Part shown: piece by piece, positions 1-15,682 of the stretch
Position numbering within the stretch: the first letter of the stretch is position 1
How the letters are laid out: every line of letters begins with the position of its first letter
DNA from: Micromonospora sp. WMMA1363
GTDB lineage: Bacteria; Actinomycetota; Actinomycetes; Mycobacteriales; Micromonosporaceae
NCBI RefSeq assembly: GCF_030345795.1
Contig: NZ_JAUALB010000001.1
Coordinates: 4,580,001-4,644,000 of the forward strand
Direction of reading: 5' to 3'
Length of the DNA stretch: 64,000 nt
Notes under the pieces: model-generated
Database searches by the model: none
What the model saw: the letters and a program-made list of their open reading frames with translations, nothing else
Told to the model about the DNA's origin: nothing
Position numbers and translations under genes: made by a program

Positions 1-3000
1 CCGGTCCCCAGCACCAGCGGTGGGATCAGTAGGAACAGCGGCGACAGGAGGACGTTGAGCAGCGCGAAGAAGATCAGCATCCGGCGGAACCGAGTGTCGC
101 CCCAGGCGTACCGGAATCCGGTGTTGATCTCGGCCGTCACCGACTTCGCCGGCCCGGCCATGGTGCGCGGGAAACGAAACGCGAGCGTGACGGTGATCGC
201 GACCGCGTAGCTCAACACGACGAGAACGAGGATGCCCCTCAAGCCCACGACGGCCATCAGCCCGACGGCCGCGACCGGCACGAACAGGCGGCTCGTCGTC
301 GCGGCGACCTGGACGACGCCGGTGGCATGACCGAGGTATCGCTTGGGGACGAGCTGCGGCACGGCGGAGTCGGAGGCGAGCAGCTGGAAGGTGAGCGCTA
401 TCGACAGGAGCGCGAGCAGCGGATAGGTGTGCGAGACCTGCAGGCTTCCGGTCCACGCCAGCAAGCCGAGCGTCAGCTGCACCCCGGCCGCGCCGAGGGC
501 GCCGGCAAGCATGACCGTACGACGGTCGCAGCGGTTCACCACCGTGCCGGCCTGCGGCGCTACGAGCAGCCCGGGCACCAGCCCGGCCACGGCGGACAGG
601 GCGAACTGGCCGGGCGAGCCGGTGGTCAGGAGGATCCAGACCGCGATTGCGAACGCGGCCAACGCCGAGCCGCTGACCGAGGCGAGGTGCGCCGCCGCCA
701 CCGCGAGAAAACGGTGCATCGCGGGCCGGGGCCCGTCGGGTGCGTCAGGCGAACACGCGCGCGAGATGTCGAGCAGCCGCCACCCCTCCCCACCGACCGA
801 CTCACCGGCGGAGACCGCCGGATGGGTGGTCGTCACGATCTCGGCGAGCTCCGCAGCGCGGTGCTTCTGGAAGAAGTGACCCGCCTCGTCGAGCAGTACG
901 ACGGCAGTGGTGTCGCTGAGGAAGTGCCACTCGCGAAAGCGCTCCTGGTAGAAGTCGGACGCTGGGTCCTGCTCCCCGGCCACGCTGATGACCGGCGCCC
1001 GCAGCCGCTCCACCGAGCTCTCGAAAAGCCGCGTGAAGTAGTCCTCCGCCGCTTCCGTGTCGCGGCGGGTGTTGTGGACGATGAGCCGGGCCTGCGCGGC
1101 GTCGATGTCGCTCATGTCGAGCCCGAGCCCGGTCAGCCCGTCCGCGTAGGCGCGGTCGCTACGCGACGCGTCCGCATTGGCAAGCCGCCCCAGCTCGCCG
1201 ACCAGGCCCCGGCCCGGCCGGGCGAAGGGGAAGATCGCGCCGATGTAGACCGCCTCCGGGACGCGGCCGGCCGCCTCCAGTTTCCTGGCGATCTCGACGA
1301 TGAGCGCCGAGCCGACGCCGCAGTGCCCGTAGAGCGCGATCGGCCCGGCGATCCTCTCCTGGATCTCCTGCACGCACCGCGCGGCGACATCCTCGAGCGG
1401 TGCGCGCTGCTCGTCGATTCCCGGGTCGTGGCCGGGGATGGCCACCGACCACAGCGCGTGCGTGGCCGGTAGCTCGTCCGCCAGCGACTTGTACACCATC
1501 GCGCTGCCACCGCCGTACGGAACGGCGACGTAGCTGAGCTCGGCCTCGGACGACGGCTTCGGCGTCAGCAGGTGCAGGAGCCTGCGCTCCGCCGACGTCT
1601 TCCCGTCGAGCAGGGCGGCGAGCCGCCGGATCGTCGCGTGGGTGAACAGGTCCATCACGGCGATCGAGGCACCGTCCGCCGTCGCACGCCTCAGCCGCTC
1701 GACCACCCTGATCGCGAGCAGGGAGTGACCACCCACGGCGAAGAAGTTGTCGTCGATTCCGACGTCGGCGCCGTCGAGGACATCCGCCCACACCGCGTGG
1801 ATCATCCGCTCCGATTCGGTGCGTGGCGGCACCCGCCCGGCCTCGCCGGCTACGGGCGCCTCGGGCGCGGGCAACCGCCCGCGGTCCACCTTGCCGTTCG
1901 CGGTCAGCGGCAGCCGGGGCAGCGTGACGAACGAGTTGGGGACCATGTAGGCCGGCAGCGCCGCAGCGAGGTGCGACCGCAGCCGTGCGGGGTCGGGAAC
2001 GGCTCCGGGCTCGGCCACGACGTAGGCCACGAGCTGGGCGGCGTTGCCCGTGCCGTGCGAGTTCACCACGCACTCGGCGACCTCGGGATGGCGGGTCAGA
2101 TGGGCCTCGATCTCGCCGAGTTCGATCCGGTAGCCGCGGATCTTGACCTGGGCGTCGGCCCGGCCGAGGAACTCGATCACACCGTCGGGCCGGTACTGGC
2201 CGAGGTCGCCGGTCCGGTAGAGACGAGCGCCGGTACGCGGGTGGGTGACGAACGCCGCCACCGTCCGCTCCGGGTCCCGCCAGTAGCCGGATGCCACGCC
2301 GACGCCCCCGATGTACAGGTCGCCAGGCACACCGATCGGCACATCGCACATCCCGCGATCGAGGACGTGGAACTGCTGGTTGGTCATCGGGCGGCCGTAC
2401 GGGATCGAGGACCACGACGGGTCGACGTCGTCGATCGGGTAGCAAATCGACCAGATCGACCCCTCGGTCGCTCCGCCGAGGCTGATGATCTCGGCGTTCG
2501 GGGCGAGCGCGCGAATGCGGTCGGGCAGTGTCGGCGGGATCCAGTCGCCGGACATCATCACCAGCCGCAGCGAACTGATGTCGGTCCCTTCCTGCTCGGC
2601 GTGCTCGACCAGCAGTTCCATCAGCGCGGGCACCGAGTTCCACACGGTGACTCGCTGCTCCGTGACGATCCGCGCCCACGCGGCCGGGTCCTTGTCCTCC
2701 TCGGGCCGTCCCATGACCAGCGTGCCGCCGGCGGCCAGCGTGCCGTAGACGTCGTAGACCGACAGGTCGAAGCTCAGGGCGGACAGCGCGAAGACCCGGT
2801 CGTCGGGCCCCACCCGGAACCGCGCGGTGACGTCGCGGACGGTGTTCAGCGCAGCCCTGTGCTCGATCATCACGCCCTTCGGCGTGCCGGTCGAGCCCGA
2901 CGTGAAGATCACGTAGGCGAGGTCGCCGGGCTCGGCGGGACAGGCCGGCGCCGATCCACCCGACTCCTCGGTGACGGGCAGCACCACCAGTCCGTCCGGC

Positions 3001-4724
3001 CAGTCCAGCCGGGAACGCAGCGCCGCCTGGGTGAGTGCCACGTCGCAGCCGCCGCGCGCGATGAGTTCGTTGCGGCGGCGCTCGGGCAGATCTGCGTCGA
3101 CGGGCAGGTAGGCGGCGCCGGCCTTGTTGATCGCCAGCACCGCGACGACCTGCTCCCACCCCCGTGCCATCACGACGGCCACCAGGTCGCCCCTCGTCAC
3201 CCCGGAGGCAGTCAGCCGCATCGCGAGGTGATCGGCCCTCCGGTCGATTTCGGCGTGCGAGAGCCAACCACCTGGGTGGACCACCGCCGGGTGGTCGGGC
3301 GTGCTGCGCGCCTGCGCTGCGACCGGGTCGTGCAGGAGCTGGTCCGCGCCGAGGTCGGCGCTCGTGTCGTTCCAGCGTGTGCGCTGCGCGCGCTCGTCGG
3401 CCGTGAGCAGCTCGTAGCTCGAGATCGGGACGTGCGGATCGGCGGCGATGCCCTCCAGAAGGACGCGGAAGTGCGCACCCAGGCGCTCGATCGAGTCCGC
3501 GCTGAACAACGCGGTGTTGTAGGTCATCAGGAAGTCGCCGGCGCCGGCGGTGTGCAGCTCGAGGTCGAACCGGGTCACGCAGTACGAGATGTCGACGTCT
3601 TCGGTGACCGTGATCGACGGGTTGCTCCGCTCGGCCTCCTCGTAGCTCTGCATGGAGAAGACCACCTGGAACAGCGGCGAACGTGACACCTCCCGCGGCA
3701 CGTTCAACTCGGTAACCAGACGCTCGAACGGCAGTTCCTGGTGGGCGAAGGCGTGCACGGCCGTCGCGCGGACCCGATCGAGCAGCTCGACGAACGTCGG
3801 GTCGCCCGAGGAGTCGACCCGCATCGTCACCATGTTGACGAAGCAGCCGACGAGGTCGTCGAGCTCGGGTACCGGCCGGCCGGCCGTCGGCGACCCGATC
3901 GTGACGTCGTCCTGCTGCGCCCGGCGGCCCAGCAGGATCGCGAACGCCGCGAGCAGCACCATGTACGGCGTGGCCCGCTGCTTGCGTCCGAGCCGGAACA
4001 ACTCGTCGAGCGCACTCGGCGCGACCGAGAACTCGTGCGCGGCGCCGGCGTAGGTCGGTACCGGTGGCCGCTGCCGGTCGGTCGGCAGCTCGAGCGGCGC
4101 GACGCCGGCGAGTTGCCCGCGCCAGTACGCCACATCCTGCTCGGTGTCGGGCAGAGCGCGTTGCCACGCGGCGAAGTCGCGGTAGCGGACCGGCAGGTCC
4201 GGCAGCGGGTCGCCGGCCAGGCAGGCCAGCACCTCGCCGAGGATGAGCTCGGTTGACCATCCGTCGGCGGCGATGTGGTGTGCCGCGAGCGCGAACACGT
4301 GCTCGTCGGGGGCGATCGTGATCAGCATCGCCCGCGCCACGGGGCCGGCGGCGAGGTCGAACGGTTCGGCCATGAAGGCGTCGACGAGCGCGCTCACGGC
4401 GTCGTCGGACACGGCCGCCGCGGTGGCGAGCGGGATCGCGCCGACATCGTCGACGAGCACGACGGGTCGGCCGTCCACGGTGGCGGGAAAGCGGGTCCGC
4501 AACGGCTCGTGCCGGGCCGCGACCCGGTTCAGCGCCCCGGCGAGCGCCTCCGGATCGATCGGGCCGCGCAGTCGCCAGGCCTCCGGGATCGTGTACGCCG
4601 TCGTGCCGGGCGCGTACGCGTCCATGAACCAGAGGCGTTCCTGGGCGAAGGACATCACCGGCTCCCCGTCGGGCAGGACGGGGATCGTCGTCGGCGTCGG
4701 AGGCAGTTCTTTCAGGCCACTCAT
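1..4724 (-). CDS. Non-ribosomal peptide synthetase module (C-A-T-TE) fused to an MFS transporter; runs off the left edge
   Basis: One uninterrupted minus-strand frame from an ATG at 4724 to the window edge, about 1574 codons with no stop. A GGGGGA ribosome-binding site lies just upstream of the ATG. Domains in order: condensation (HHIAADG near residue 149), adenylation (FTSGSTGTPKG near 606, GGATEGS near 747, NGKVDR), carrier (GGHSL, Ser1001), thioesterase (GHCGVG with Cys1135, GEQD, His1283), then from about residue 1336 an MFS-type membrane domain with at least six hydrophobic segments before the edge. The adenylation pocket reads D-L-Y-N-M-S-L-I-W-K, which I recall as a cysteine code. It probably joins an upstream acyl or aminoacyl group to cysteine, releases the product through the TE and exports it through the fused transporter. 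The TE nucleophile is Cys instead of Ser. The 3' end is outside the window, so total length and final transmembrane count are unknown. Confidence 0.93.
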   Translation of the reverse strand, partial: MSGLKELPPTPTTIPVLPDGEPVMSFAQERLWFMDAYAPGTTAYTIPEAWRLRGPIDPEALAGALNRVAARHEPLRTRFPATVDGRPVVLVDDVGAIPLATAAAVSDDAVSALVDAFMAEPFDLAAGPVARAMLITIAPDEHVFALAAHHIAADGWSTELILGEVLACLAGDPLPDLPVRYRDFAAWQRALPDTEQDVAYWRGQLAGVAPLELPTDRQRPPVPTYAGAAHEFSVAPSALDELFRLGRKQRATPYMVLLAAFAILLGRRAQQDDVTIGSPTAGRPVPELDDLVGCFVNMVTMRVDSSGDPTFVELLDRVRATAVHAFAHQELPFERLVTELNVPREVSRSPLFQVVFSMQSYEEAERSNPSITVTEDVDISYCVTRFDLELHTAGAGDFLMTYNTALFSADSIERLGAHFRVLLEGIAADPHVPISSYELLTADERAQRTRWNDTSADLGADQLLHDPVAAQARSTPDHPAVVHPGGWLSHAEIDRRADHLAMRLTASGVTRGDLVAVVMARGWEQVVAVLAINKAGAAYLPVDADLPERRRNELIARGGCDVALTQAALRSRLDWPDGLVVLPVTEESGGSAPACPAEPGDLAYVIFTSGSTGTPKGVMIEHRAALNTVRDVTARFRVGPDDRVFALSALSFDLSVYDVYGTLAAGGTLVMGRPEEDKDPAAWARIVTEQRVTVWNSVPALMELLVEHAEQEGTDISSLRLVMMSGDWIPPTLPDRIRALAPNAEIISLGGATEGSIWSICYPIDDVDPSWSSIPYGRPMTNQQFHVLDRGMCDVPIGVPGDLYIGGVGVASGYWRDPERTVAAFVTHPRTGARLYRTGDLGQYRPDGVIEFLGRADAQVKIRGYRIELGEIEAHLTRHPEVAECVVNSHGTGNAAQLVAYVVAEPGAVPDPARLRSHLAAALPAYMVPNSFVTLPRLPLTANGKVDRGRLPAPEAPVAGEAGRVPPRTESERMIHAVWADVLDGADVGIDDNFFAVGGHSLLAIRVVERLRRATADGASIAVMDLFTHATIRRLAALLDGKTSAERRLLHLLTPKPSSEAELSYVAVPYGGGSAMVYKSLADELPATHALWSVAIPGHDPGIDEQRAPLEDVAARCVQEIQERIAGPIALYGHCGVGSALIVEIARKLEAAGRVPEAVYIGAIFPFARPGRGLVGELGRLANADASRSDRAYADGLTGLGLDMSDIDAAQARLIVHNTRRDTEAAEDYFTRLFESSVERLRAPVISVAGEQDPASDFYQERFREWHFLSDTTAVVLLDEAGHFFQKHRAAELAEIVTTTHPAVSAGESVGGEGWRLLDISRACSPDAPDGPRPAMHRFLAVAAAHLASVSGSALAAFAIAVWILLTTGSPGQFALSAVAGLVPGLLVAPQAGTVVNRCDRRTVMLAGALGAAGVQLTLGLLAWTGSLQVSHTYPLLALLSIALTFQLLASDSAVPQLVPKRYLGHATGVVQVAATTSRLFVPVAAVGLMAVVGLRGILVLVVLSYAVAITVTLAFRFPRTMAGPAKSVTAEINTGFRYAWGDTRFRRMLIFFALLNVLLSPLFLLIPPLVLGT

Positions 4725-4800
4725 AGGACGTCCCCCGGAGGTCACTAGTGCACCCTCTTCCGTGCGGGCCCTTGGACAGGGCTTGTGGTAGGAACTAGGC

Positions 4801-4870
4801 GGAAGCCGGGGTGACGGCCTTTTGCGGTCGCCCCTCGTGGGCCTCGATGACACTGCCGCCCCCGGCTTCC
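4801..4870 (-). other. Possible structured leader upstream of the NRPS gene
   Basis: An 11-base stretch at 4801-4811 (GGAAGCCGGGG) pairs perfectly with 4860-4870, enclosing a 48-base loop that can fold further. It lies 77-146 bases upstream of the NRPS start and between that start and the insertion sequence. It could be a leader RNA element on the minus strand or the relic of a terminator for a gene displaced by the insertion. The loop is too long for an ordinary intrinsic terminator. I do not recognise a riboswitch class. The rest of 4725-4920 shows no gene and no convincing promoter. Confidence 0.35.
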
Positions 4871-4920
4871 CCGGAACCGCTGATCGATGACAGAAGGACG
4901 CGCCGTAGAGCGCCGGTTAG

Positions 4921-4939
4921 TACTGCAACGGCGGGTCGT
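4921..4939 (+). repeat. Left terminal inverted repeat of the IS701-type element
   Basis: TACTGCAACGGCGGGTCGT, the exact reverse complement of 6282-6300. Counting the flanking bases TTAG and CTAA the complementarity extends to 23 bp. Confidence 0.9.
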
Positions 4940-4942
4940 GAC

Positions 4943-5120
4943 TTATGGCGGTTTGAGTCGTTTGCGGTAGTGGGCGGCTCGGGCTTGTTCCTGGCGGCGA
5001 CGGCGGAAGTCGGACCAGCGCAGGATGTGGTCGGCTCGACGGCGGGTGGTCAGGACGAGGTGGGCGAACAGGCGGCGGATTTCGTTGCTGCTCAGCGGGA
5101 TCTGGCTGCGCTCGTTTGCG
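4943..5120 (-). pseudogene. Out-of-frame C-terminal part of the IS701 transposase
   Basis: In the frame shifted by one base from the main transposase frame, this stretch encodes IPLSSNEIRRLFAHLVL and HILRWSDFRRRRQEQ, ending at TAA 4943-4945. That matches the basic, helical C-terminal end I recall for IS701 transposases. It has no start or ribosome-binding site of its own. It would be translated only by frameshifting at the G run near 5127-5131 or after that run is repaired to six G. Confidence 0.7.
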
Positions 5121-6273
5121 GTGGTGCCCCCTTTGCGGCTTCGAGGGCGCGGGTGACGACGAGGAACGCGGCGGCGGCCATCGCGAGGGTGATGTGGGCG
5201 TACCAGGCGTCGTAGCGGCGGACCTGGTACTGGTCCAGGCCGACCTCGTTCTTCGCGGTCTGGAACGATTCCTCCACCGACCAACGGCTACCGGCGACCC
5301 GCACCAGGTCGCGTAGTCGGGTGCCGCGGGGGCCGAAGCAGACGTAGTAGGCGATGTCGCCGGGATCCGTGATCGAGCGTCGGGCCAGGACCCAGCCGCG
5401 GCGGCCGTGGGCAAAGGTGCGGCGGATCGGCAGCCGAGCCCAGTCGTAGCGGCGCGGCCCGTGCGCGCCGTCACCACACGACAGTCGTTGCCACGCGCCC
5501 GCACGCACCCTGCCGATCAGCTCGTCGACACCGGTGGTGGTGTGCAGCCCGGAGGGCACCCGATCGTCGCGTCGGGTGGCCATCACGTACGCGATGTCCC
5601 GATCCTCCAACCAGCCCCGCAGGCCAGGGTTCTGCCCGTAGGCCTCATCGGCCGTGAACCACGAAAACGGCACCCCCGCGGTGACCGCCCGCTCCAGCAT
5701 GGCCTGCGCCTGCTGCGGCTTGGTCGCGAACCCGACGGCGTCCGGGATCGCCGAGCGCCGGCACCGGTCCCGATCACCGGTCCACGACTTCGGCAGGTAC
5801 AACTCCCGATCGATCAACGCCCGACCCCGCGGCGTGGCGTAGCACAGGAACGTGCCGATCTGGCAGTTCTCGGTCTTGCCCGCCGTACCCGAATACTGCC
5901 GTTGGACCCCCGCCGACGCACGGCCCTTCTTGACGAACCCCGTCTCGTCAGCGATGAGCACCCCGGCCGCATCGCCGATCTGGTCCACCACGTAATCGCG
6001 CACGTCATCGCGGACCGCGTCCCGGTCCCACGCCGCGCTGCACAGCATGCCCTGCAACCCGTCCGGCGACACATGCCCAGCCTGCTCCGCGAGGGTCCAG
6101 CCGTTACGCCGCTCCAACGGTGCCAGTAGCCCCCGCACATACGCCCATGCCCGCCGCCGCGGCTCCACCCGCTCAAACCGATGCGCGAACCGGAAGAACA
6201 ACTCCTCCAACCCGGCATCCCACGACCCGACCACCCGCGCATCCACCACAACCAACCAACGAATGATCAGCAC
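5092..6273 (-). CDS. IS701-family transposase, main frame (C-terminus lost to a frameshift)
   Basis: This 393-residue DDE transposase cuts and pastes the surrounding element. Family-typical segments are an N-terminal RVEPRRRAWAYVRGLLAPLE, the first acidic block LIADETGFVKKG with YSGTAGKTENCQIG, a second acidic block FTADEAYG, and a late Glu block SRWSVEESFQTAKNEVGLDQ. The frame ends prematurely with an unrelated tail (APPQTSAARSR). The usual basic C-terminus is present in the next frame (4943 to about 5120). The switch point is a run of five C at 5127-5131 (AAAGGGGG on the coding strand). The catalytic core is complete, so the truncated protein might be partly active. A -1 ribosomal frameshift at A-AAG-GGG could restore the full length, but a single-base deletion is the simpler explanation. 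Confidence 0.85.
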   Translation of the reverse strand: MLIIRWLVVVDARVVGSWDAGLEELFFRFAHRFERVEPRRRAWAYVRGLLAPLERRNGWTLAEQAGHVSPDGLQGMLCSAAWDRDAVRDDVRDYVVDQIGDAAGVLIADETGFVKKGRASAGVQRQYSGTAGKTENCQIGTFLCYATPRGRALIDRELYLPKSWTGDRDRCRRSAIPDAVGFATKPQQAQAMLERAVTAGVPFSWFTADEAYGQNPGLRGWLEDRDIAYVMATRRDDRVPSGLHTTTGVDELIGRVRAGAWQRLSCGDGAHGPRRYDWARLPIRRTFAHGRRGWVLARRSITDPGDIAYYVCFGPRGTRLRDLVRVAGSRWSVEESFQTAKNEVGLDQYQVRRYDAWYAHITLAMAAAAFLVVTRALEAAKGAPPQTSAARSR

Positions 6274-6281
6274 CCGAAGCT

Positions 6282-6300
6282 ACGACCCGCCGTTGCAGTA
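6282..6300 (-). repeat. Right terminal inverted repeat of the IS701-type element
   Basis: This is the exact reverse complement of the left repeat. It lies 8 bases upstream of the transposase start, so the transposase promoter must lie in the repeat or outside the element. Confidence 0.9.
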
Positions 6301-6331
6301 CTAAGGAAGTCGATTCGTCCGGCGGGCCCGA

Positions 6332-7522
6332 TCAGAAGTCGGCGAAGAGGTACGGCAGCCGGCGCGGGAAGAGGCGGCGCAGCTCCGCCCCCGCGTCGGC
6401 GGGAACGTCACCCAGCCCGCGTAGGTGCACCTCCACCGGATCCAGTACCCCGTACGCGAGCCCGGAGAGCCCGGCGGCGGTCAGCGTGGCGGATGGGGCG
6501 CCGCCCGCGCCGGCGCGGGCCAGTTCCAGCGCTCCGGTCGTGCCGTCGAGCAGATAGACCCCGGCGAGCCAGCGATCCCCGGTCAGCTCCACCCGGACCC
6601 GGGCCGGGCCGACGGGCAGTCCGGTGAGCGCGTCCACCGCGAGCAGCCGGGCCATCGGCGCCGAGGAACCCGGCCGGGCCACCCGCGCCTGCACATGCAC
6701 CTCGAGGTCGGTGAGCCACAGCTCGGGCACCTCGTCGGCGGGAACGTCGAAGCGGACCGTCGCCACCTGGTCGATGTGCCGGGCGAAGAACTGCAACAGC
6801 AGCGACCGGGCGTACGGGTCGGTGGCGAGCAGGTCGTCGGCGGCCAACGTGCCCCCGTGCTCGTCGATCCGGTAGGTCGCCGCCCCGGTCACCGTCCCGC
6901 CGACCCGGGCGGTCACCAGCCACCGTTCGTTCCGGTCGCGCAGCGCCACCGCCCGGTAGTCGGGGAAGAGCGCGAACCCGTGCCGCTCGCGGAGGCAGCG
7001 TTCGGTGAATTCGTGCCACGCCGGGTAACCGGCGCCGATCCGCTCCCAACCCACCTCGCCGGGCAAATCGGCGCGTAGCAGCGGGGCCAGGTCGGCCACC
7101 GGCAGCGAGACGGTGCGCCGCAGCGGCAGCCCGACGTAGCCGAACCGCCCGTAGAACGACGGCCGGAACGGCCAGAGCGCCGTCAGCTGGTGCCCCTCGT
7201 CGCGCATCTCGTCCAGCAACTGGTGCAGCAGGGTGCGCACGTGCCCCTGCCAGCGGGCCAGCGGGTGGGTGACCACGCCGGCGACGCCGGCCATCGGCAA
7301 CACCCGGCCGCGCAGGTTCTCCCGCATCGGGATGGCCGAGACCGCCGCGCGCGTCTCGCCCGCCTCCTCGACGACCAGCGTCCGGTTGCCCTCGTTGTAG
7401 GGCAGGTACTCGCGGAACTCCTTGGCCCGCTCGACGCTCCGGGGCGAGCCCTCGAAGGCGTACGCCTGGAGGGGGAAGCTGGTGGTGAGGCGTTCCTCGG
7501 AACCAACCCTGCGGACGGTCAT
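6332..7522 (-). CDS. Eis-like GNAT N-acetyltransferase
   Basis: This 396-residue protein has the Eis-family layout: an N-terminal GNAT fold with acetyl-CoA region LPMAGVAGVVTHPLARWQGH, a second degenerate GNAT fold, and an SCP2-like C-terminal domain ending in a terminal Phe carboxylate (LPYLFADF), which in Eis enzymes reaches into the active site. FYGRFGYVGLPLRR is also typical. Family members acetylate aminoglycosides or other amines, and mycobacterial Eis gives kanamycin resistance. The natural substrate here cannot be read from sequence. It begins at ATG 7522 and ends 28 bases from the inserted IS element. The 233-base stretch upstream (7523-7755) shows no gene. Confidence 0.85.
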   Translation of the reverse strand: MTVRRVGSEERLTTSFPLQAYAFEGSPRSVERAKEFREYLPYNEGNRTLVVEEAGETRAAVSAIPMRENLRGRVLPMAGVAGVVTHPLARWQGHVRTLLHQLLDEMRDEGHQLTALWPFRPSFYGRFGYVGLPLRRTVSLPVADLAPLLRADLPGEVGWERIGAGYPAWHEFTERCLRERHGFALFPDYRAVALRDRNERWLVTARVGGTVTGAATYRIDEHGGTLAADDLLATDPYARSLLLQFFARHIDQVATVRFDVPADEVPELWLTDLEVHVQARVARPGSSAPMARLLAVDALTGLPVGPARVRVELTGDRWLAGVYLLDGTTGALELARAGAGGAPSATLTAAGLSGLAYGVLDPVEVHLRGLGDVPADAGAELRRLFPRRLPYLFADF

Positions 7523-7755
7523 CGGCTCATCCCATCCCGGCCGGGCCGCCCGCGCAACCGAGATTGCGCCTACCCCGGTCGGCAGGTGTCGCAGGTGCCG
7601 GCGACGGCGCGGCCGGACACCGCGGCCACCCGTCGGCGTTCACCGGTCGGCCCTCGCGATGATCGCGCTCACCGGGGCGACGAACGCGAGCCGCCTCCGC
7701 CCTGGCGGTGCCCAGCTCGGCGCACCTACCTGTGCGGAGCGGGTGGTGGACGGGC

Positions 7756-8475
7756 TCAGAGCGCCGTGACGTCGGAGACCACGACGGTGACGTTGTCCGG
7801 CGCCCCGGCCTGGTGGGCGAGCTTGACCAGTTGCTCCCCGCAGAGTTGGCGGTCGCCGTAGCGGGTCAGCGCGGCGGCGACCGCGTCGTGCTCGACGTAG
7901 TCGGAGAGCCCGTCGCTGCACAGCAGCAGCCGGTCGCCGGGCGCGACGGTGAGCGTTCCGATCGCGGGCGGGGTGTCCGAGCCCTGGACCGCGCGGGTCA
8001 CCAGGGACCGCTGGGGGTGGTGCCGGGCCTGCTCGGGGGAGAGCGCGCCCTGGTCCACCAGCGCCTGCACGAACGTGTCGTCCCGGGTGAGCTGGGTCAG
8101 CGCCCCGTCCCGGAGCAGGTAGCAGCGGGAGTCGCCGACCTGGGCCAGCACCAGTGTGTCACCGGCGAGCAGCGCGGCTGTCAATGTCGTACCCATGCCC
8201 TCACGGGCGGGATCGACGGTGATGGCGGCGTGGATGCGCTGGTTGGCGGTGCTGACCACGGCGCGCAGCGCGTCGGTGGCCTCGTCGGGGGTGGGTGGCG
8301 GGGTCAGCTCGTCCAGGATCCGGATCACGATCTCGCTCGCCACCTCGCCCGCGGGCAGGCCGCCCATCCCGTCCGCGACCGCGACGAGGCGCTCGCCCGC
8401 GAGGGCGGAATCCTCGTTGTTGGTCCGGACCAGGCCGACGTCGTTGAGGATGGCCGAGCGGAGGATCAGCGTCAT
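7756..8475 (-). CDS. PP2C-family serine/threonine protein phosphatase
   Basis: This 239-residue stand-alone PP2C domain dephosphorylates Ser/Thr phosphoproteins with two metal ions. The expected motifs are present: GLVRTNNEDS (Asp of motif 1), VADGMGG, GMGTTLTAALL, QVGDSRCYLL, LTRDD, LLLCSDGLSDYV and the terminal PDNVTVVV with metal-binding Asp. There is no membrane segment, so it resembles a cytosolic PstP-like or regulatory enzyme rather than membrane PstP. It is monocistronic, with short gaps on both sides. Confidence 0.9.
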   Translation of the reverse strand: MTLILRSAILNDVGLVRTNNEDSALAGERLVAVADGMGGLPAGEVASEIVIRILDELTPPPTPDEATDALRAVVSTANQRIHAAITVDPAREGMGTTLTAALLAGDTLVLAQVGDSRCYLLRDGALTQLTRDDTFVQALVDQGALSPEQARHHPQRSLVTRAVQGSDTPPAIGTLTVAPGDRLLLCSDGLSDYVEHDAVAAALTRYGDRQLCGEQLVKLAHQAGAPDNVTVVVSDVTAL

Positions 8476-8552
8476 GGGATCAAGCTTGCCAAGAACACCC
8501 TCCGTTCGTCTCTACGCACTGGTGGGCGGTTTGGAAAGTTGTCGTCGACGGA

Positions 8553-8906
8553 TCACTCCTCGGCGGGCAGATCCGTCAGCGGGACGTCGAGGCGGACCGC
8601 GTCGGTGACGGCGGCGATCTGGTCGGCGAGCACGTAGACCGCGCCGGTGCTGACCTGGTCGGTGGAGACCTTCAAGTAGCCCGCGTGCCGCAGTCGGGCC
8701 GCCAGGTCGGCCGGGACGTCCGGCTCCTCGGTGGCGGTGGACTCGATCAGTTCGTCCAGGCTGCTGCCCGGGTCGGCGGTCGGCGCCTGCACGGTCACCG
8801 CGTTCGGGTCACCGCGCTGGACCAGGTCCACGGTGCCGATATTGGTACCGGCGGCGTCGAGTACCCGCATGCCGGTGGTGACCCGGGAGAGGACCGGTTG
8901 ACTCAT
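8553..8906 (-). CDS. PRC-barrel-like small conserved protein
   Basis: A 117-residue protein starting at ATG 8906 (SQPVLSRVTTGMRVLDAAG). The opening resembles a PRC-barrel or DUF2171-type fold (VLDAAGTNIGTVDLVQ), and the C-terminal half has a second similar strand pattern (YLKVSTDQVSTGAVYVLADQ). PRC-barrel proteins often bind RNA or photosynthetic and stress complexes, but the role here is unknown. The frame stays open further upstream without a better start; the arginine-rich extension up to 9161 does not look like real protein. It overlaps no neighbour. Confidence 0.7.
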   Translation of the reverse strand: MSQPVLSRVTTGMRVLDAAGTNIGTVDLVQRGDPNAVTVQAPTADPGSSLDELIESTATEEPDVPADLAARLRHAGYLKVSTDQVSTGAVYVLADQIAAVTDAVRLDVPLTDLPAEE

Positions 8907-8935
8907 ACCAGCGCGGTTCCCGGCCGTTCCGCGCG

Positions 8936-9181
8936 CTAAACGCCGCCCCAGCCGCCCGGCGGGCGGGGGGACAGTTCGCGCCACGTGTCGGTGCCGTGGA
9001 GCAGGGCCCGGACCGTCTCCTCGGCCTCGTCGGCGCTGCCGTACTCGTAGAACCGCGAGACCCCCTCCGACCCGCCGGCGCGCTGCTCGACGTACCACCG
9101 GTCGGCGTCGACCCGGAGGAAGACGTCCCGCCGGGCCAGGCGGCCCCATTTCCCGTTCCACCAGTGCTTTCGCTGCTCCAT
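8936..9181 (-). CDS. Small conserved actinobacterial protein of unknown function
   Basis: An 81-residue protein from ATG 9181 (MEQRKHWWNGKWGRLARRD), or 88 residues if the in-frame ATG at 9202 is used. Neither start has a clear ribosome-binding site. It is rich in Trp and charged residues (RVDADRWYVEQRAGG, YGSADEAEETVRALL), has no signal or membrane segment, and looks like a compact globular domain. It lies directly upstream of the PRC-barrel-like gene on the same strand, 29 bases away, so they may be co-transcribed. No function can be assigned. Confidence 0.6.
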   Translation of the reverse strand: MEQRKHWWNGKWGRLARRDVFLRVDADRWYVEQRAGGSEGVSRFYEYGSADEAEETVRALLHGTDTWRELSPRPPGGWGGV

Positions 9182-9217
9182 GGGGGGAACTCTATCGAAC
9201 ATGCGTACGAAGAAATG

Positions 9218-9246
9218 CGGCCCCCGCGGGATTCCCGCGGGGGCCG
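9218..9246 (-). terminator. Intrinsic terminator downstream of mscL
   Basis: A perfect 13-bp stem (9218-9230 with 9234-9246, CGGCCCCCGCGGG) with a three-base loop. In the minus direction a T-rich stretch follows (CATTTCTT). It lies 16 bases beyond the mscL stop. Confidence 0.85.
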
Positions 9247-9262
9247 GTGGGTGCGTGCCGCG

Positions 9263-9721
9263 TCAGTGCCTGGTGGGCGGTTCCTCCCGCCGGCCAATCG
9301 CGTCGTCGAGGGCGCCGCGTTGCTGGGCGGGGGTGGTGCGGCCGGCCGCGGACAGGGCGTCCCGGATCTCGGTGAGCAGCTTGATCTCCTCGCTCGGCGC
9401 CTTCGGCGGCGGCTCCTCACCGCGCTGCCGGCGCTCGGCCAACGTGTTCATCGGGAACACGACCAGGTAGTACAGGGCCGTGGCGATGAGCAGGAAGGTG
9501 ATGGCCGCGTTGACGAACGCGGCCCACTCGAAGGTCTGACCGCCGATCTTCCACGTGCCGGCGGTCAGCTCGGAACGGCCGTCGATCAGCTTGACCAGTG
9601 GGTTCAGGAACGATTCGGTGAACTGGGTGACCAGGCTGGTGAAGGCGGCGCCGATGACGACGCCGACCGCCAGGTCGACGACGTTCCCTCGCATGACGAA
9701 GTCTTTGAAGCCCTTGAGCAT
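9263..9721 (-). CDS. mscL: Large-conductance mechanosensitive channel MscL
   Basis: A 152-residue channel starting at ATG 9721 (MLKGFKDFVMRGNVVDLAVG). The first transmembrane helix and pore region (LAVGVVIGAAFTSLV, then FTESFLNPLVKL) and the second helix (FVNAAITFLLIATALYYLVVFPMN) are present, followed by a charged cytoplasmic helix. It forms a homopentamer that opens at near-lytic membrane tension. The length is normal. The ATG was preferred over the longer upstream frame because the family starts with MLKGF. A strong terminator follows. Confidence 0.96.
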   Translation of the reverse strand: MLKGFKDFVMRGNVVDLAVGVVIGAAFTSLVTQFTESFLNPLVKLIDGRSELTAGTWKIGGQTFEWAAFVNAAITFLLIATALYYLVVFPMNTLAERRQRGEEPPPKAPSEEIKLLTEIRDALSAAGRTTPAQQRGALDDAIGRREEPPTRH

Positions 9722-9761
9722 CCGTACTCCCGAGGTGTCCGATTCTTCGGTCCGGCACAAC

Positions 9762-10445
9762 CTATGCCTCGGACGGATGCTCCAGAAAGGCGCCGGCTTC
9801 GATGGCTGCCCGGTCCGCGTCGCCGGCCCGGATCGCATCCACCAGTCGGGAATGGTCGACGTAGCGCTCCGGCTCCAGCGTGGCGCCCATCGAATGGGTC
9901 AGGGTGCTGCGCAGCGCGGCGCCGACCGAGGCGTACAGCTCAGCGAGCATGCCGTTGTGTGCGGCGGCGACGACGGCGGCGTGCAGCGCGGCGTCGGCCT
10001 CCACGAACTCGTCGACCCGGCCGCCGCGCCACGCCGCCTCCCGGGCGGCGAGTGCGCCGTCGAGCGCCGCCAGGTCCTCGACGGTACGCCGTAGCGCGGC
10101 CAGTCGGGCGGCTTCCACCTCGAAGGCGCGCCGCACCTCGACCACCTCGACCATCCGGTCGTCGGTGAGCCGGCGGGCCACCACCGGGGCCAACTCGTCG
10201 GTCGACACCACGTACGTCCCCGAGCCCTGCCGGCAGTCCAGCACCCCGGCGTGCACCAGGGCGCGGACCGCCTCGCGCACGGTGTTGCGGCCGACGCCGA
10301 GGGTCGCCACCAGTTGCGGCTCGGTCGGGATCCGGCCGCCCACCGGCCACTCGCCGCCCAGGATCCGCTTTCGGAGCTGCGCGATCGTCTCCTGCACCCG
10401 CCGGCCGCGCGGCGGCGTGGCGGCGGCATCAGCCACGGGTGGCAC
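9762..10445 (-). CDS. GntR-family transcriptional regulator, FadR subfamily
   Basis: A 227-residue regulator with an N-terminal winged helix (IPTEPQLVATLGVGRNTVREAVRAL, then GSGTYVV) and an all-helical FCD effector domain with candidate metal/ligand-binding residues (DAALHAAVVAAAHN, YVDHSRLVDAI). FadR-type proteins usually repress nearby metabolic or transport genes until a small carboxylate binds. The gene is divergent from the MFS gene with only 50 bases between starts, so it probably controls that transporter and itself. The ligand is unknown. Confidence 0.9.
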   Translation of the reverse strand: MPPVADAAATPPRGRRVQETIAQLRKRILGGEWPVGGRIPTEPQLVATLGVGRNTVREAVRALVHAGVLDCRQGSGTYVVSTDELAPVVARRLTDDRMVEVVEVRRAFEVEAARLAALRRTVEDLAALDGALAAREAAWRGGRVDEFVEADAALHAAVVAAAHNGMLAELYASVGAALRSTLTHSMGATLEPERYVDHSRLVDAIRAGDADRAAIEAGAFLEHPSEA

Positions 10446-10495
10446 TGGTTACAACCCCTGCCGAAAATTCATCCCATGATTGTAGGTTCGACCCC
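10446..10495. promoter_or_regulatory. Divergent promoter/operator between the FadR-type regulator and MFS gene
   Basis: This 50-base gap serves two divergent genes. It holds GGTTACAACC (overlapping its left edge) and a second GGTTCGACC near the MFS start, each a short GGT..ACC palindrome, plus TACAA and TTGTA arms 26 bases apart. A FadR-type operator is expected here, but none of these matches a consensus well. No ribosome-binding site is visible before the MFS start. Confidence 0.3.
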
Positions 10496-11833
10496 ATGAC
10501 TCCGCCACCACCCCCCACCGTCACGCCCACCCACCCGCGGAGGGGGCGGAAGCGCGGAAAGCGTGGCTCCGGGAACGCCGAACCGGCCTCTTTCCCGGAA
10601 AGCGCGCGTTCCCCGGAAAGCGCGCGCACGGCGACGGTGGCGGAAAACGGCGTGCTGCGCGGGGGTGCGCTCGTGCTGGTCGGGATGCTGCTGGTCGCGG
10701 TGAACCTGCGGGCCGCCGTCACCAGCCTGGGGGCGTTGCTCGACGAGGTGCGGACCGGGCTGGGGCTCTCCGGGGCGATGGCCGGTCTCGTCACGACCCT
10801 GCCGACGATCGCGTTCGCCGGGCTCGGTGCGCTCACCCCGTGGCTGGTCCGCCGCGTCGCCCCGGCCCGGGTGCTGGTGGTCGCCATGCTCGCGCTCGCC
10901 GCCGGCCAGGTGTTGCGGGTGGTCACCGGCTCGGCGCTGGTCTTCGTGCTCACCAGCGCGTTGGCGCTGGCCGGGATCGCGGTGGCGAACATCCTGCTGC
11001 CGATGCTGGTCAAGCAGCACTTCCCGGGCCGTACCGGGTTGGTCACCGGGGCGTACACGATGGCGCTGACCGTGGGCACGACGGTGGCCTCCGCGTCGGC
11101 GGTGCCGGTCGCGCACGCCTTCGGCTCGTGGCGGGTCGGGCTCGGCATCTGGGCGGGGCTGGCCGCGGTGGCAGTTCTCCCATGGGTGCCGCTGGCACTG
11201 CGGGCCGGCGCGGTCACGTGGCGGGCGGCCCGGACGGCGACCACCACCACACGGGTGCGGCCGGCCCGGACCCGGCTCGGCTGGGCGATGGCGGTGTACT
11301 TCGGCACGCAGTCGCTGAGCGGGTACGCGATCATGGGCTGGTTGGCGCAGCTGTTCCGGGACGCCGGGTACCGGCCGGAGACCGCCGGCCTGCTGCTCGC
11401 CGGGGTGACCGCCCTGGGCGTGCCGATCGCGCTGCTGATGCCGACGCTGGCCGGGCGGATGCGGACGCTGCGACCCCTGGTGCTGTCGCTGACCGCCGCG
11501 TCGACGCTCGCCTACCTGGGGCTGGCGCTGGCGCCGCACGGCGGCGCGATGCTCTGGGTCGCCCTGCTGGCGGTCGGGCAGGGAGCCTTCCCGCTGGTCC
11601 TCACGACCATCGGGCTGCGGGCCCGCACCGCCGAGGGGACGGTGGCGCTGTCGGCGTTCGCGCAGAGCGTCGGCTACGTCATCGCGGCCCTCGGGCCGCT
11701 GCTGGTCGGTGTCCTCTACGAGGCCACCGCCGGTTGGACCGCGCCGATCGGGTTTCTCCTGGCGGCCCTGACGGTGCAGACCGGTGCGGGGCTGGTTATC
11801 GCCCGTCCCCGGTACGTCGAGGACGAGACCTGA
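10496..11833 (+). CDS. MFS transporter, CynX/NimT-like
   Basis: A 445-residue membrane protein from ATG 10496. After a long basic, Pro-rich cytoplasmic N-terminus of about 55 residues come 12 predicted hydrophobic helices. The first, LLVAVNLRAAVTSLGALLDE, and ALAGIAVANILLPMLVKQHF are characteristic of the cyanate/nitroimidazole-transporter-like branch. The substrate is not evident. The FadR-type regulator next door suggests induction by a substrate-related metabolite. It ends 4 bases before the convergent STAS gene, so transcription from the two must collide or share a terminator; no hairpin is visible. Confidence 0.88.
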   Translation: MTPPPPPTVTPTHPRRGRKRGKRGSGNAEPASFPESARSPESARTATVAENGVLRGGALVLVGMLLVAVNLRAAVTSLGALLDEVRTGLGLSGAMAGLVTTLPTIAFAGLGALTPWLVRRVAPARVLVVAMLALAAGQVLRVVTGSALVFVLTSALALAGIAVANILLPMLVKQHFPGRTGLVTGAYTMALTVGTTVASASAVPVAHAFGSWRVGLGIWAGLAAVAVLPWVPLALRAGAVTWRAARTATTTTRVRPARTRLGWAMAVYFGTQSLSGYAIMGWLAQLFRDAGYRPETAGLLLAGVTALGVPIALLMPTLAGRMRTLRPLVLSLTAASTLAYLGLALAPHGGAMLWVALLAVGQGAFPLVLTTIGLRARTAEGTVALSAFAQSVGYVIAALGPLLVGVLYEATAGWTAPIGFLLAALTVQTGAGLVIARPRYVEDET

Positions 11834-11836
11834 CGG

Positions 11837-12193
11837 TCAGGGGGAGGTGGGAGTGGGGTCACCCGCGACGGCCTGCTCGACGGTCCGGTAGGTGTGCAGC
11901 ACCTCGACGAGCCCGCTGACCTCCAGGATGCGCAGCACCCCTCGCTGCGGGGCGGCCAGCCGGACCACACCGCCGGCCTCGTCGCAGCTGTTCTTGGCGC
12001 GGACGAAGACGGACAGCCCGGTGGAGTCGCAGAACGAGAGGTCGCCCAGGTCGAAGACCAGCCGGCTGCGGCCCTTGTCCAGCAGGTCGGTGATCTGGTC
12101 CTGCAACTGCGGTGCGGTCGCCATGTCCAGCTCGCCCGCGACCGACACGACGACGACGTTGCCGCGCTGTTCCGTCTGCACTGTCAAGGACAT
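11837..12193 (-). CDS. STAS-domain anti-sigma factor antagonist
   Basis: A 118-residue single STAS domain (VVVVSVAGELDMATAPQLQD) with the phosphorylation loop FCDSTGLSVFV, whose Ser is the usual target of an anti-sigma kinase. The unphosphorylated form binds the kinase and frees its sigma factor. RBS GGGAGG lies 8 bases before ATG 12193. No cognate anti-sigma gene is adjacent; the SpoIIE/RsbW-like fusion at 20-22 kb could be a partner. Upstream, 12194-12455 has no gene. Confidence 0.9.
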   Translation of the reverse strand: MSLTVQTEQRGNVVVVSVAGELDMATAPQLQDQITDLLDKGRSRLVFDLGDLSFCDSTGLSVFVRAKNSCDEAGGVVRLAAPQRGVLRILEVSGLVEVLHTYRTVEQAVAGDPTPTSP

Positions 12194-12455
12194 TCGCCAG
12201 ACCTCCCGTTATCGGGGAAACGGTATCCCACTGTCGGGCCGGTAGGCAGATCGGGAGCGCTTGCCCGGGGTCGTCGCCGTTCCCTTGCTTCGGGCACGTG
12301 GTTGACGAGCGTGCGGTAGGTCCACCCGGTCAGGCCGGAGGGGTGGTCACGTTTGCGAGTGGGGTGCGGTCCGGTGAGCGGGCGGGCATACGCCGTGGAG
12401 GTTGCGGCCGGTGACCACGCTGAACTCGACCCGCGGCGCCCGCGCTGTGGGTCCC

Positions 12456-12491
12456 TTGACAGCTGCTATTCGCTCAGTGAATAGTAGCGCC
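12456..12491 (+). promoter_or_regulatory. padR operon promoter with overlapping palindromic operator
   Basis: TTGACA at 12456-12461, then after 18 bases AATAGT at 12480-12485, six bases before the GTG start at 12492, so the transcript is probably leaderless. A 19-bp imperfect palindrome, CTATTCGCTCAGTGAATAG (12466-12484), fills the spacer and enters the -10. This is the expected arrangement for PadR autorepression. Confidence 0.7.
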
Positions 12492-13028
12492 GTGTCCACA
12501 CCGCACGTCCTGCTCGGGCTGCTCGTGACCGGCGCCAAGCACGGTTACGAGTTGAAGCGCGCCCACGACGAGCGGCTGCCCCGGGCCCGGCCGTTGGCCT
12601 TCGGGCAGGTCTACGCCACGCTCGGCCGGTTGCAGCGCGACGGCCTCGTCGCCACCGCCGGCCAGGAGCGGGAGGGGGGTCCGGACCGCACCACGTACAC
12701 CCTCACCGACGCGGGTCGGGCCGCGCTGGACGGCTGGCTCGCCGAGGTCGAGCCGCCCATGCCCTACGTCGCCAGCACACTCTTCGCGAAGGTCGCGGTG
12801 GCGCTGCTGGTCGCCGACGTGGACCGGGCCCGCGACTGGCTGGTCGCCCAGCGCCGAGCCCACATCCAGCGGCTGCGTGAGCTGACCGCCGCCAAGTCCG
12901 CCCCGTCGGCCACGCTCGACGACGTCGTCGCCCTCGACTTCGCCATCACCCACCTCGACGCCGACCTGCGGTGGCTGCACACCACCCTGGAACGGGTCGC
13001 CGACTGGCACCGGGAGGTGCACTCGTGA
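12492..13028 (+). CDS. PadR-family transcriptional regulator
   Basis: A 178-residue regulator from GTG 12492 (STPHVLLGLLVTGAKHGYEL), typical of PadR winged-helix proteins, with RAHDERLPRARPLAFGQVYATLGRL as the DNA-binding part and a helical C-terminal dimerisation domain. The start was chosen because it falls where the family begins and directly after a good promoter. It overlaps the next gene at GTGA and so leads a three-gene operon with an ABC exporter. PadR proteins usually repress such exporters until a toxic ligand binds. Confidence 0.92.
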   Translation: MSTPHVLLGLLVTGAKHGYELKRAHDERLPRARPLAFGQVYATLGRLQRDGLVATAGQEREGGPDRTTYTLTDAGRAALDGWLAEVEPPMPYVASTLFAKVAVALLVADVDRARDWLVAQRRAHIQRLRELTAAKSAPSATLDDVVALDFAITHLDADLRWLHTTLERVADWHREVHS

Positions 13029-13726
13029 CGCAACTACAGGCCAGCGGAGTGGTCAAGGCATACGGGCCGACGTCCGCCCTACGCGGGGTCACGCTTGACG
13101 TGGCCGAGGGCGAGATCGTGGCGGTGGTCGGGCCGAGTGGCAGCGGGAAGTCCACGCTGCTGTATTGCCTCGCCGGCATCCTGCGCCCGGACGCGGGCGC
13201 GGTGACGTGGCGCGGCCATCGGCTCGACACCTGGTCCGAGGCGGCGCGCTCGCAGCTGCGACGGACGGAGTTCGGGGTGTTGTTCCAGTTCGGTCAGCTC
13301 GTCGCCGAGCTGACCGCGGCGGAGAACGTCGCCCTGCCGCTGCTGCTCGCCGGCACGGGGCGGCGAGCAGCGCGGACGGCGGCCCTGACCTGCCTGGAGC
13401 GGTTCGGCGTGGCGGAGCTGGCGGATACCCCGCCGGGCAAGATGTCCGGCGGGCAGCAACAGCGTTGCGCCGCCGCCCGCGCGCTGGTCACCGAGCCGCG
13501 GGTGCTGTTCGCGGACGAGCCCACCGGTGCCCTGGACACGCTGACCGGTGAGCAGGTCCTGCGGCAACTTGTCCGGCTCGCCCGCGACCAGGGCACGGCG
13601 GTCATCCTGGTCACCCATGAGCCGCGTATCGCCGCGTACGCCGACCGTGAGGTCGTCCTGCGGGACGGCCTCGTCGACCACGGTGGCCTCGGGCTCGACG
13701 TGCCGCTGCTCGGGGAGCGGCCGTGA
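13025..13726 (+). CDS. ABC transporter ATP-binding protein (LolD/MacB type)
   Basis: A 233-residue ATPase starting at GTG 13025 inside the padR stop. Walker A VVGPSGSGKSTLLYCLAG, Q-loop FQFGQLVAELTAAENV, signature MSGGQQQRCAAARAL, Walker B VLFADEPTGALD and switch His VTHEP are all intact. It pairs with the FtsX-like permease that overlaps its stop. Such pairs usually export peptides, antibiotics or lipoproteins, or act as mechanotransmission devices, rather than import. Confidence 0.95.
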   Translation: MTQLQASGVVKAYGPTSALRGVTLDVAEGEIVAVVGPSGSGKSTLLYCLAGILRPDAGAVTWRGHRLDTWSEAARSQLRRTEFGVLFQFGQLVAELTAAENVALPLLLAGTGRRAARTAALTCLERFGVAELADTPPGKMSGGQQQRCAAARALVTEPRVLFADEPTGALDTLTGEQVLRQLVRLARDQGTAVILVTHEPRIAAYADREVVLRDGLVDHGGLGLDVPLLGERP

Positions 13727-15240
13727 GGCCGTGGGCCGCGCTCCGCCTGGCACTCGTGGGCACTCGCACCGACGCGGCCCGGGTGACGTTGACCGCGCTC
13801 AGCGCGGCGCTGGCCACCCTTGCCGGGCTGGCCGCGCTGACCGTGCTGGCCATCCCGACGCCGCACGGTGCGGCCGGCTATCCCCGCTGGTCCGAGCAGT
13901 ACAGCAATGCCCTGCTCCGGGAGCCCGGGCTCCGCGGCGGAACGGCGTTCGCGTTGCTGTTGCTCACGATCCCGGTCCTGGCGTTGGCCGGTCAGTGCGC
14001 CCGGCTCGGCGCGCCCGCCCGGGACCGCCGGTTGGCCGCGTTCAGGTTGGCCGGCGCCACGCCGGGCCAGGTGACCTGGATCGCTGTGCTGGAGTCCGGG
14101 CTGGCGAGCCTGATCGGCGCGTTCGCCGGATTGGGGGTGTACCTGGGCGGCCGAGAACTGCTGCACCGGCCGGACCACCGGGGGCAACTCGCGTTGCCGA
14201 CCGACGTGCTACCCCCGGCGGCTGCCGTGACCGCGGTCGTCCTCGGACTACCGCTGGTGGCGGCCGTGGCCACCGCGTTCCTGCTGCGCCGGGTCCGCAC
14301 CACGCCGTTCGGCGTGGTGCGCCGGACACGCGTCCGGGGGCCGCGACCGTGGCCAGGCGCGCTGATCGTGCTGGGGCTGGCCATGTTCAGCGTGTACCGG
14401 CCGATCGAGCTCTGGCACGCCCGGCGCGGCAACGAGCCGCCGGAGTGGCTGCTACCGACCCTGCTGATCGCGGGCGGGCTGACCGCCACGGTCGGCGTGG
14501 TGATCGGGACCGGGTGGATCTCGTACGCCGTAGGCCGGCTACTGCACCGGTACGCGCGGCGTCCCGCCGTGCTGCTCGCCGCCCGGCGGCTGACCGTTGA
14601 TCCGTGGGCCGGCAGCCGGACCCTCGCCGCCCTGTTGGCGGCGCTGCTCTTCGGGGCGGGAGCCGCGGGCCTACGGGCCCACTTCGAGGCGGCGAATGCG
14701 CTGTCGGATCGTGGGCTTGGTAGCCTGGCCGGTGGCGACGACTTCTATCTCAACACGATGGACCTGGTCGACCTCGCGGTCTCCGTGGCGATCGCGATCG
14801 CCGCCGGCGGGCTGCTGGTCGCCGTGGTGGAGGGCATCACTGCCCGGCGGCGCACGTACGCGGCGCTGGTCGCCGCCGGGGTGCCCCGGGGCACGCTGGG
14901 CCGGGCGGTCGGGTGGCAGGCGCTCGCCCCAGCCGTTCCCGCGATCGTCGTCGCTCTCACCGTCGGGCTCCTGCTTGCCCGTGGCCTGTTCCGCGCTCCG
15001 TCCGGCGGCGGCTACAAGCAGACGATCTGCGACGCGGGGCCGGTGTGCGAGGACCCGGTCACCCAGGCGGCACACACCCGTACCGAGTGGGTGCCGGAGG
15101 TGACCGTGTCGCCGGCCGTACCCCTGGAACAGTTGGCGGCGCTCGGTGGCGGTGCCGTGGCCGCGGTGCTGGTGACGGTCGCGGCCGGTGTTCTCGTCCT
15201 GCACACCAGCACGGCGGTGGAGGAACTCCGGACCGCCTGA
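13723..15240 (+). CDS. FtsX-like ABC transporter permease
   Basis: A 505-residue membrane protein from GTG 13723, overlapping the ATPase stop. It has two FtsX-type blocks: an N-terminal helix, then three-helix groups around 75-200 and 360-500 (IPVLALAGQCARLGAPARDR, then VSVAIAIAAGGLLVAVVEG and RTYAALVAAGVPRGTLGRAV). An extracellular loop near 430-465 contains two Cys (ICDAGPVCEDP) that could form a disulfide. Together with the upstream ATPase it makes a complete PadR-controlled transporter, probably exporting or sensing a hydrophobic toxic compound. Confidence 0.9.
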   Translation: MRPWAALRLALVGTRTDAARVTLTALSAALATLAGLAALTVLAIPTPHGAAGYPRWSEQYSNALLREPGLRGGTAFALLLLTIPVLALAGQCARLGAPARDRRLAAFRLAGATPGQVTWIAVLESGLASLIGAFAGLGVYLGGRELLHRPDHRGQLALPTDVLPPAAAVTAVVLGLPLVAAVATAFLLRRVRTTPFGVVRRTRVRGPRPWPGALIVLGLAMFSVYRPIELWHARRGNEPPEWLLPTLLIAGGLTATVGVVIGTGWISYAVGRLLHRYARRPAVLLAARRLTVDPWAGSRTLAALLAALLFGAGAAGLRAHFEAANALSDRGLGSLAGGDDFYLNTMDLVDLAVSVAIAIAAGGLLVAVVEGITARRRTYAALVAAGVPRGTLGRAVGWQALAPAVPAIVVALTVGLLLARGLFRAPSGGGYKQTICDAGPVCEDPVTQAAHTRTEWVPEVTVSPAVPLEQLAALGGGAVAAVLVTVAAGVLVLHTSTAVEELRTA

Positions 15241-15256
15241 TCGGGTTGGTCGGCGG

Positions 15257-15451
15257 TCAGTTCGCGCTGAACAGCCCGGCGGAGAGCGCGAGCAGCGAGC
15301 CGGCGGCGGCCGAACAGCAGCAGACGAGCAGGACGGCGACCACCGCGAGGATCGCCCAGACCCGCCGGTCCCGTGCCGCCGCACGCAGGCTCGACCGGGG
15401 TGCGTCCTCCGTTGGCCCGCCCGCTACCGGCCCACCCTCCGCCGTGCTCAC
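15257..15451 (-). CDS. Small single-pass membrane protein
   Basis: A 64-residue protein from GTG 15451 (STAEGGPVAGGPTEDAPRSS). A polar N-terminus and a basic stretch RAAARDRR precede a hydrophobic helix (VWAILAVVAVLLVCCCSAAAG) with three consecutive Cys, ending outside with a short tail. The Cys cluster could be palmitoylated or oxidised, but this is speculation. Long extensions upstream look non-coding. It is convergent with the ABC permease, 16 bases apart. The 231 bases to the dehydratase show no gene. Confidence 0.5.
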   Translation of the reverse strand: MSTAEGGPVAGGPTEDAPRSSLRAAARDRRVWAILAVVAVLLVCCCSAAAGSLLALSAGLFSAN

Positions 15452-15682
15452 CGCTTCGCCCCGATCACGCCGGCAGTCTAGGCGACCTGGAACCCGAGCA
15501 TCCCAATCATGATCGTGCTGCGGCCGGGGAGCATGTACCGGCACCGCCGGGACGGGCAGCCGACCCGGACGTGCGCGTGGCGCCATCCGGGCGAAACGGC
15601 GCCGGGGCCACCGTCTCCGCGAGCACGGTCGTGGCATGGGCGGGGCGGGCAGGCGGATGGTGGCGCCGGGCAGAATGGGGCG

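Follow-up and report, generated by a model that had tools for sequence, protein, structure and literature searches.

The question raised by this locus is whether a single-module NRPS fused to an MFS exporter can make and secrete a product by itself or belongs to something larger. The window analysed here is a stretch of 64,000 nucleotides (G000:C1:4580001-4644000); negative positions lie to its left, in an extension (L009, G000:C1:4566001-4586000) whose last 6,000 bases are identical to window positions 1-6000. Read past the window edge, the gene is an uninterrupted open reading frame (ORF) of 1789 amino acids on the minus strand, running from the ATG at 4724 to -645 (G000:C1:4579356-4584724). 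Its parts are as follows.

1..4724, minus strand: the part of the NRPS-MFS gene inside the window; the ORF continues outside to -645
3384..4655, minus strand: condensation domain, residues 24-447, with the active-site motif HHIAADG at residue 149
1890..3320, minus strand: adenylation domain, residues 469-945, with code residues DLYNMSLIW and Lys945
1608..1802, minus strand: carrier domain, residues 975-1039, with Ser1001 at 1722-1724
834..1547, minus strand: thioesterase, approximately residues 1060-1297, with Cys1135 (1320-1322), Asp1253 (966-968), and His1283 (876-878)
1..710, minus strand: the window part of the MFS domain, which starts at residue 1339; the remainder (-555..0) is outside

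The preliminary description had claimed an in-frame fusion, and every codon that it named is found at its place in a single frame: the ATG at 4724, Ser1001, Cys1135, residue 1336 (717-719), and residue 1522 (159-161). It had put the MFS part about 50 residues past the thioesterase histidine, and the distance from His1283 to codon 717-719 is 53 residues. It had also asked for the sequence to be extended leftwards and had named a stop or frame change between the thioesterase and MFS parts as evidence against a fusion; the extension contains no stop up to -645 and completes the MFS domain, the assembled frame is unbroken between the two parts, and the fusion is kept in 79 of 80 loci (the best 80 of 248 stretches confirmed in a search of genome contigs). 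Six Pfam profiles match the protein, each above its curated cut-off (Condensation 24-447, AMP-binding 469-815, AMP-binding_C 871-945, PP-binding 975-1039, Thioesterase 1067-1166, and MFS_1 1345-1679); MFS_3 is below the Pfam cut-off. Condensation, adenylation, carrier, thioesterase, and MFS domains all lie within one ORF, the arrangement of the NRPS/MFS transporter family. Because the MFS match shares its ORF with adenylation and carrier motifs in 79 of the 80 named loci, a fusion produced by chance or by sequencing error is excluded, and we conclude that the fusion gene is real and complete.

The hydropathy profile has 12 hydrophobic segments between residues 1347 and 1740, enough helices for a transporter, which bears out the earlier assignment of an MFS exporter domain; that the fused domain exports the product is what its family membership suggests. 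We used AlphaFold2 (28 sequences) to model the thioesterase-MFS part of the Pseudonocardia xinjiangensis ortholog (L023), which stands in here for the window's own protein (mean pLDDT 85.1, pTM 0.83). The top PDB matches of this ortholog model are ObiF1 and SulM for the thioesterase and MdfA, SPNS2, and VMAT for the MFS part. In an alignment of 120 proteins, the distance from the thioesterase histidine to the start of the MFS part ranges from 45 to 189 residues (median 84), and because its length varies so widely, the stretch looks like a loose tether.

The alignment of the 120 best-listed proteins leaves the carrier Ser, the thioesterase Asp and His, and the second condensation His unchanged (each 120/120); as thioesterase nucleophile, 116 proteins have Cys and the other 4 have Ser. 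Their adenylation codes (n=120) are DLYN(M/L)SLIW in 36, DLWN in 1, DFTK-type in 73, DVWH-type in 6, and DTED-type in 4. By the usual specificity-code tables, DLYN(M/L)SLIW, which includes the window's copy, would denote cysteine; the DFTK-type is presumably Asp-like and the DVWH-type presumably Ser-like. Cysteine is thus probably the substrate of the window's adenylation domain. Across the 120 listed proteins, the code switches (Cys-, Asp-, and Ser-like), and the Cys thioesterase and MFS part stay constant. The window's own triad, Cys1135-Asp1253-His1283, occupies RifR-like positions in the sequence alignment, and by this measure the thioesterase is of the ObiF-like Cys-Asp-His type. According to the ObiF report, the thioesterase Cys of ObiF is required for β-lactone formation and the Asp is located on strand 6, as in RifR (PMC6668435).

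The preliminary description had stated that NRPS-MFS fusions exist in actinobacteria, and this proved to be so: the architecture itself is already known as a large database family. When the MFS part was used as the query, 877 of the 7989 proteins scored matched at E <= 1e-5. The best 120 of the 877, the window's own included, each have Condensation, AMP-binding, PP-binding, Thioesterase, and MFS_1, and many of these are already named “non-ribosomal peptide synthetase/MFS transporter” by NCBI. The single exception among the 80 loci, L091, has a related MFS domain in an ORF of 1526 residues with no condensation, adenylation, or carrier motifs and is a different fusion. A tree of 31 MFS domains has one branch (support 100/95) that splits 24 fused from 7 free-standing rows; 13 of the 24 were assigned to the fused group from ORF length only, an internal stop interrupts one free-standing row, two free-standing rows sit on long branches, and the root is placed at the midpoint. 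The tree fits a single old fusion event, and one event suffices because one branch separates the fused from the free-standing rows. Our literature search found no paper that treats the NRPS-MFS fusion by title or abstract; the interest of the family, in which 116 of the 120 aligned proteins have a Cys thioesterase, is that it would couple product release to export across a large actinobacterial group.

Close copies of the gene are patchily distributed. Among 61 relatives' genomes, 26 have a match at E <= 1e-30, some through free-standing transporters; within the genus, 11 of 160 genomes reach E <= 1e-120, where the top match besides the window's own is at 55%; and at E <= 1e-140, three of 354 genomes of the family match, these being the present genome, G336 (88%), and G245 (65%). 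Presence at the closeness of the window's own copy is therefore confined to one of the 160 genus genomes, and at 88% or more to two of the 354 family genomes, own included.

The closest relatives have the fusion gene inside a PKS-NRPS cluster, as one of its modules. A PKS-type gene precedes the fusion gene in Spongiactinospora (L022), Pseudonocardia (L023), Nonomuraea candida (L057), and Kibdelosporangium (L065), and past it come an NRPS-type gene, an MFS gene on the opposite strand, and another PKS-type gene (domains confirmed for L022 and L023). More widely, 74 of the best 80 of 248 loci have a further NRPS/PKS-class gene in the flanking DNA covered. These neighbourhoods leave the earlier proposal, that a single module both makes its product and secretes it in one step, unsupported. 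In two Acrocarpospora loci (L059 and L067), the NRPS-MFS ORF has no NRPS/PKS-class partner within the 5.4-5.5 kb before it or the 9.4 kb after it; these copies are possibly further orphans or stand-alone versions. G336, a genome of 8.28 Mb from the same family, carries the full cluster from 4982348 to 4957110, with the fusion gene last. Four of its proteins exceed the NCBIfam cut-offs (in brackets) for AmcC at 780 bits (600), AmcE at 257 (140), AmcF at 556 (325), and AmcH at 632 (370); a 4HBT-type thioesterase gene stands where AmcD could be, and AmcB and AmcG were not identified in this cluster. AmcC also exceeds its cut-off in L023, L057, and L041 (a Nonomuraea). The genes amcB-H make up the cispentacin-type clusters in the report on them (PMC10698177). 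The relatives' intact clusters are the systems in which the idea of a tethered exporter can be tested directly.

None of these partners was found in the present genome at the DNA level. Identity to G336 is 93.6% at the DNA level from -586 to 4744, that is, over the gene alone; the flanks (-13999..-587 and 4745..64000) gave no match to 60 kb of G336, and the remaining matches all fall inside the window's gene as cross-matches of the adenylation domain. Homology to L022, L023, L057, and L065 likewise ends at 4744; there, 21 bp before the ATG, lies a further start codon in the same frame, one that overlaps the PKS stop in the relatives. DNA-level searches of all 20 contigs found no other cluster gene, either with 19 kb of L023 (40 of 1156 candidate places scored) or with 13.8 kb of the G336 cluster (40 of 985 scored); matches longer than 300 bp outside the fusion gene were at 64-70% identity in both. 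In the latter search, the AmcC-AmcH stretch gave three matches only, of 25-92 bp, in the whole genome, and amcB-H were accordingly not found at the window's locus at the DNA level. At the DNA level, the fusion gene shares 88% identity with its Pseudonocardia counterpart; the neighbouring amine oxidase gene (-5884..-4394) is 85-91% identical to those of three congeners. Because 88% to another genus falls within the range of the congeners (for this one neighbouring gene), and because presence is patchy, we suggest that the gene has spread horizontally. Within this genome no cognate partner of the gene can be seen, and it probably lies idle or acts only in trans.

The DNA immediately upstream of the gene bears on how this state arose.

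4745..4916, no strand: a 172-bp stretch between the end of parent-cluster homology (4744) and the insertion element
4917..6304, minus strand: IS701-family element (about 4921-6300; transposase 5092-6273), with mismatched flanks, TTAG on the left and CTAA on the right

The element starts 193 bp upstream of the ATG. With 40 of 264 candidate places scored, at least 26 in the genome, its own included, match it at a rounded 100% identity. Three nearby IS701 copies (118 kb examined) have matching 4-bp flanks (CTAG, TTAG, and CTAA). The flanks of the upstream copy do not match and therefore come from different insertions, so that the element marks a rearrangement junction; TTAG and CTAA are reverse complements of each other, and the pattern could be that left by inversion between opposite IS701 copies. 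To the right of the element, the DNA is common to congeners from about 6322-6332 on, and to its left, it differs from that of five congeners. When the 20-40 kb on the left side of the gene at 6332 in each of those five congeners was compared with the 60 kb on the left in the present genome, no match exceeded 200 bp; the 14.4-kb left flank of one congener is represented elsewhere in the genome by one 855-bp piece at 89% and by short matches. An ancestral site without the fusion gene was not recovered from the congener flanks. Scanning 4600-5300 for promoters and terminators gave no hit, an outcome that is uninformative for such DNA. Since the element ends 172 bp short of the point where homology stops, IS701 alone does not account for the loss, and it may be that this genome never had the complete cluster.

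The reading frame has remained under constraint and is not a drifting relic. With changes polarised by three agreeing outgroups, we counted 47 nonsynonymous against 77 synonymous changes on the window's branch and 58 against 50 on the G336 branch, where the neutral expectation is 2.25-2.7 to 1; the two differ (p 0.018), the window's copy being the more constrained, and much of its branch may predate the loss of the cluster. The MFS part has a higher dN/dS than the condensation and adenylation domains in seven of seven pairs (0.46, 0.31, and 0.31 between the window's gene and G336), and the carrier and linker exceed the MFS part in some pairs.

Several features of the surroundings are recorded here in their own right. 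The last codons of the fusion gene contain a sequence resembling a tRNA T-arm, GGTTCGAGTCCC (window -635..-614; L009:13365-13386, minus strand), which made the end of the gene a candidate tRNA attachment site. ARAGORN found no tRNA in L009 or the window, the 22-base pattern occurs once in the genome with up to two mismatches allowed, and Rfam scores it as tRNA-Sec at 18.3 bits (cut-off 47). Convergent with the fusion gene, and overlapping its 3′ end slightly, is a BTAD/NB-ARC (SARP-type) regulator gene (L009:11306-13360, plus strand). Near another IS701 copy, a 631-residue protein (L009:5110-7005, plus strand) matches only the middle of DUF5682 (profile 263-542 of 727). At 21966-27601 on the plus strand of the window lies a hybrid histidine kinase of 1693 residues with seven HAMP stretches and GAF and receiver domains; the gene after it encodes a response regulator.

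The likely explanation, we suggest, is that a hybrid PKS-NRPS pathway of cispentacin type has spread horizontally and that this gene, which carries its own exporter, is its terminal module, orphaned by loss of the cluster or never accompanied by it. In the complete cluster, the condensation domain would accept a chain from an upstream carrier, the adenylation domain would load (probably) cysteine, the thioesterase would move the chain onto its own Cys and then release it by a putative chemistry, and the fused MFS part would export the product; in the present genome, the rest would have been lost or never brought along. We count in favour the intact ORF and domains, the clusters of the relatives, the absence of partners at the DNA level, the unmatched IS flanks, the constraint, and the patchiness. 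Against it, a dead remnant would not be expected to stay for long more constrained than the G336 copy, and the element does not by itself explain the loss. Also against it stand L059 and L067, likewise without a visible partner, the nature of the absence tests, which are DNA-level and cover 40 of 1156 and 40 of 985 places, and the provisional assignment of cysteine to the adenylation domain. The same two loci, with no visible partner in their flanks, would suit a stand-alone synthetase-exporter that takes a common acyl-CoA or acyl-ACP donor, frees N-acyl cysteine or a derivative through its thioesterase, and exports it through the MFS part, as would the intact catalytic motifs and the constraint on the window's branch. 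We regard this as unlikely, however, given that 74 of the 80 loci have another NRPS/PKS-class gene nearby, that the closest relatives all have an upstream PKS and a second NRPS, and that the constraint may be older than the loss. It is distinctly unlikely, in our judgement, that the family forms a distinct type of end to an assembly line, its Cys thioesterase making a reactive product and passing it directly to the covalently attached exporter, and that the orphan does so alone as its smallest version; by analogy with ObiF, the reactive product of the Cys-loading members would conceivably be a β-thiolactone.

An orphan could also serve as a distant terminal module for another NRPS/PKS line of the genome, of which there are several (C1:0.69, 1.90, 1.97-2.00, 5.48, and 5.69-5.73 Mb), but those regions are related to the parent cluster by generic domains only (more than 300 bp at 64-70%), and we think such service very improbable. 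An assembly error, with the cluster present in the strain and cut off by a misjoin at a repeated IS, would draw on the at least 26 places at a rounded 100% identity to the element and on the fact that the unmatched flanks occur exactly at the copy beside the fusion gene. We give it hardly any credence: at the DNA level and among the places scored, the missing genes were found in none of the 20 contigs, completeness is stated as 99.98%, homology ends 172 bp before the element, and contig C1 (6.04 Mb) spans many IS copies.

The orphaned terminal module that we favour can be set beside several known systems. MdfA, SPNS2, and VMAT are free-standing transporters. The MFS part of the ortholog resembles this class in fold (6euq, Foldseek E 2.0e-7) at an identity of just 12-17%. 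ObiF1, the obafluorin synthetase (6n8e; PMC6668435), is the nearest solved thioesterase by sequence (E 3.6e-24, with Cys, Asp, and His aligned) and, judged from the ortholog model, also by fold; ObiF1 has no MFS part, and β-lactone release, a trait of ObiF, is putative for the fusion family. With the cispentacin-type clusters (PMC10698177), the G336 cluster shares AmcC, AmcE, AmcF, and AmcH and differs in its additional type I PKS, NRPS, and NRPS-MFS gene; the present genome, in contrast, has no amc genes at the DNA level. The proteins named NRPS/MFS transporter by NCBI have the identical domain order, and the closest full-length relatives listed are 71-88% identical in the MFS part. The window's gene equals them in architecture and differs in standing without the cluster of its closest relatives, a cluster down to one still-constrained gene, which cautions against predicting a product from the fusion gene alone.
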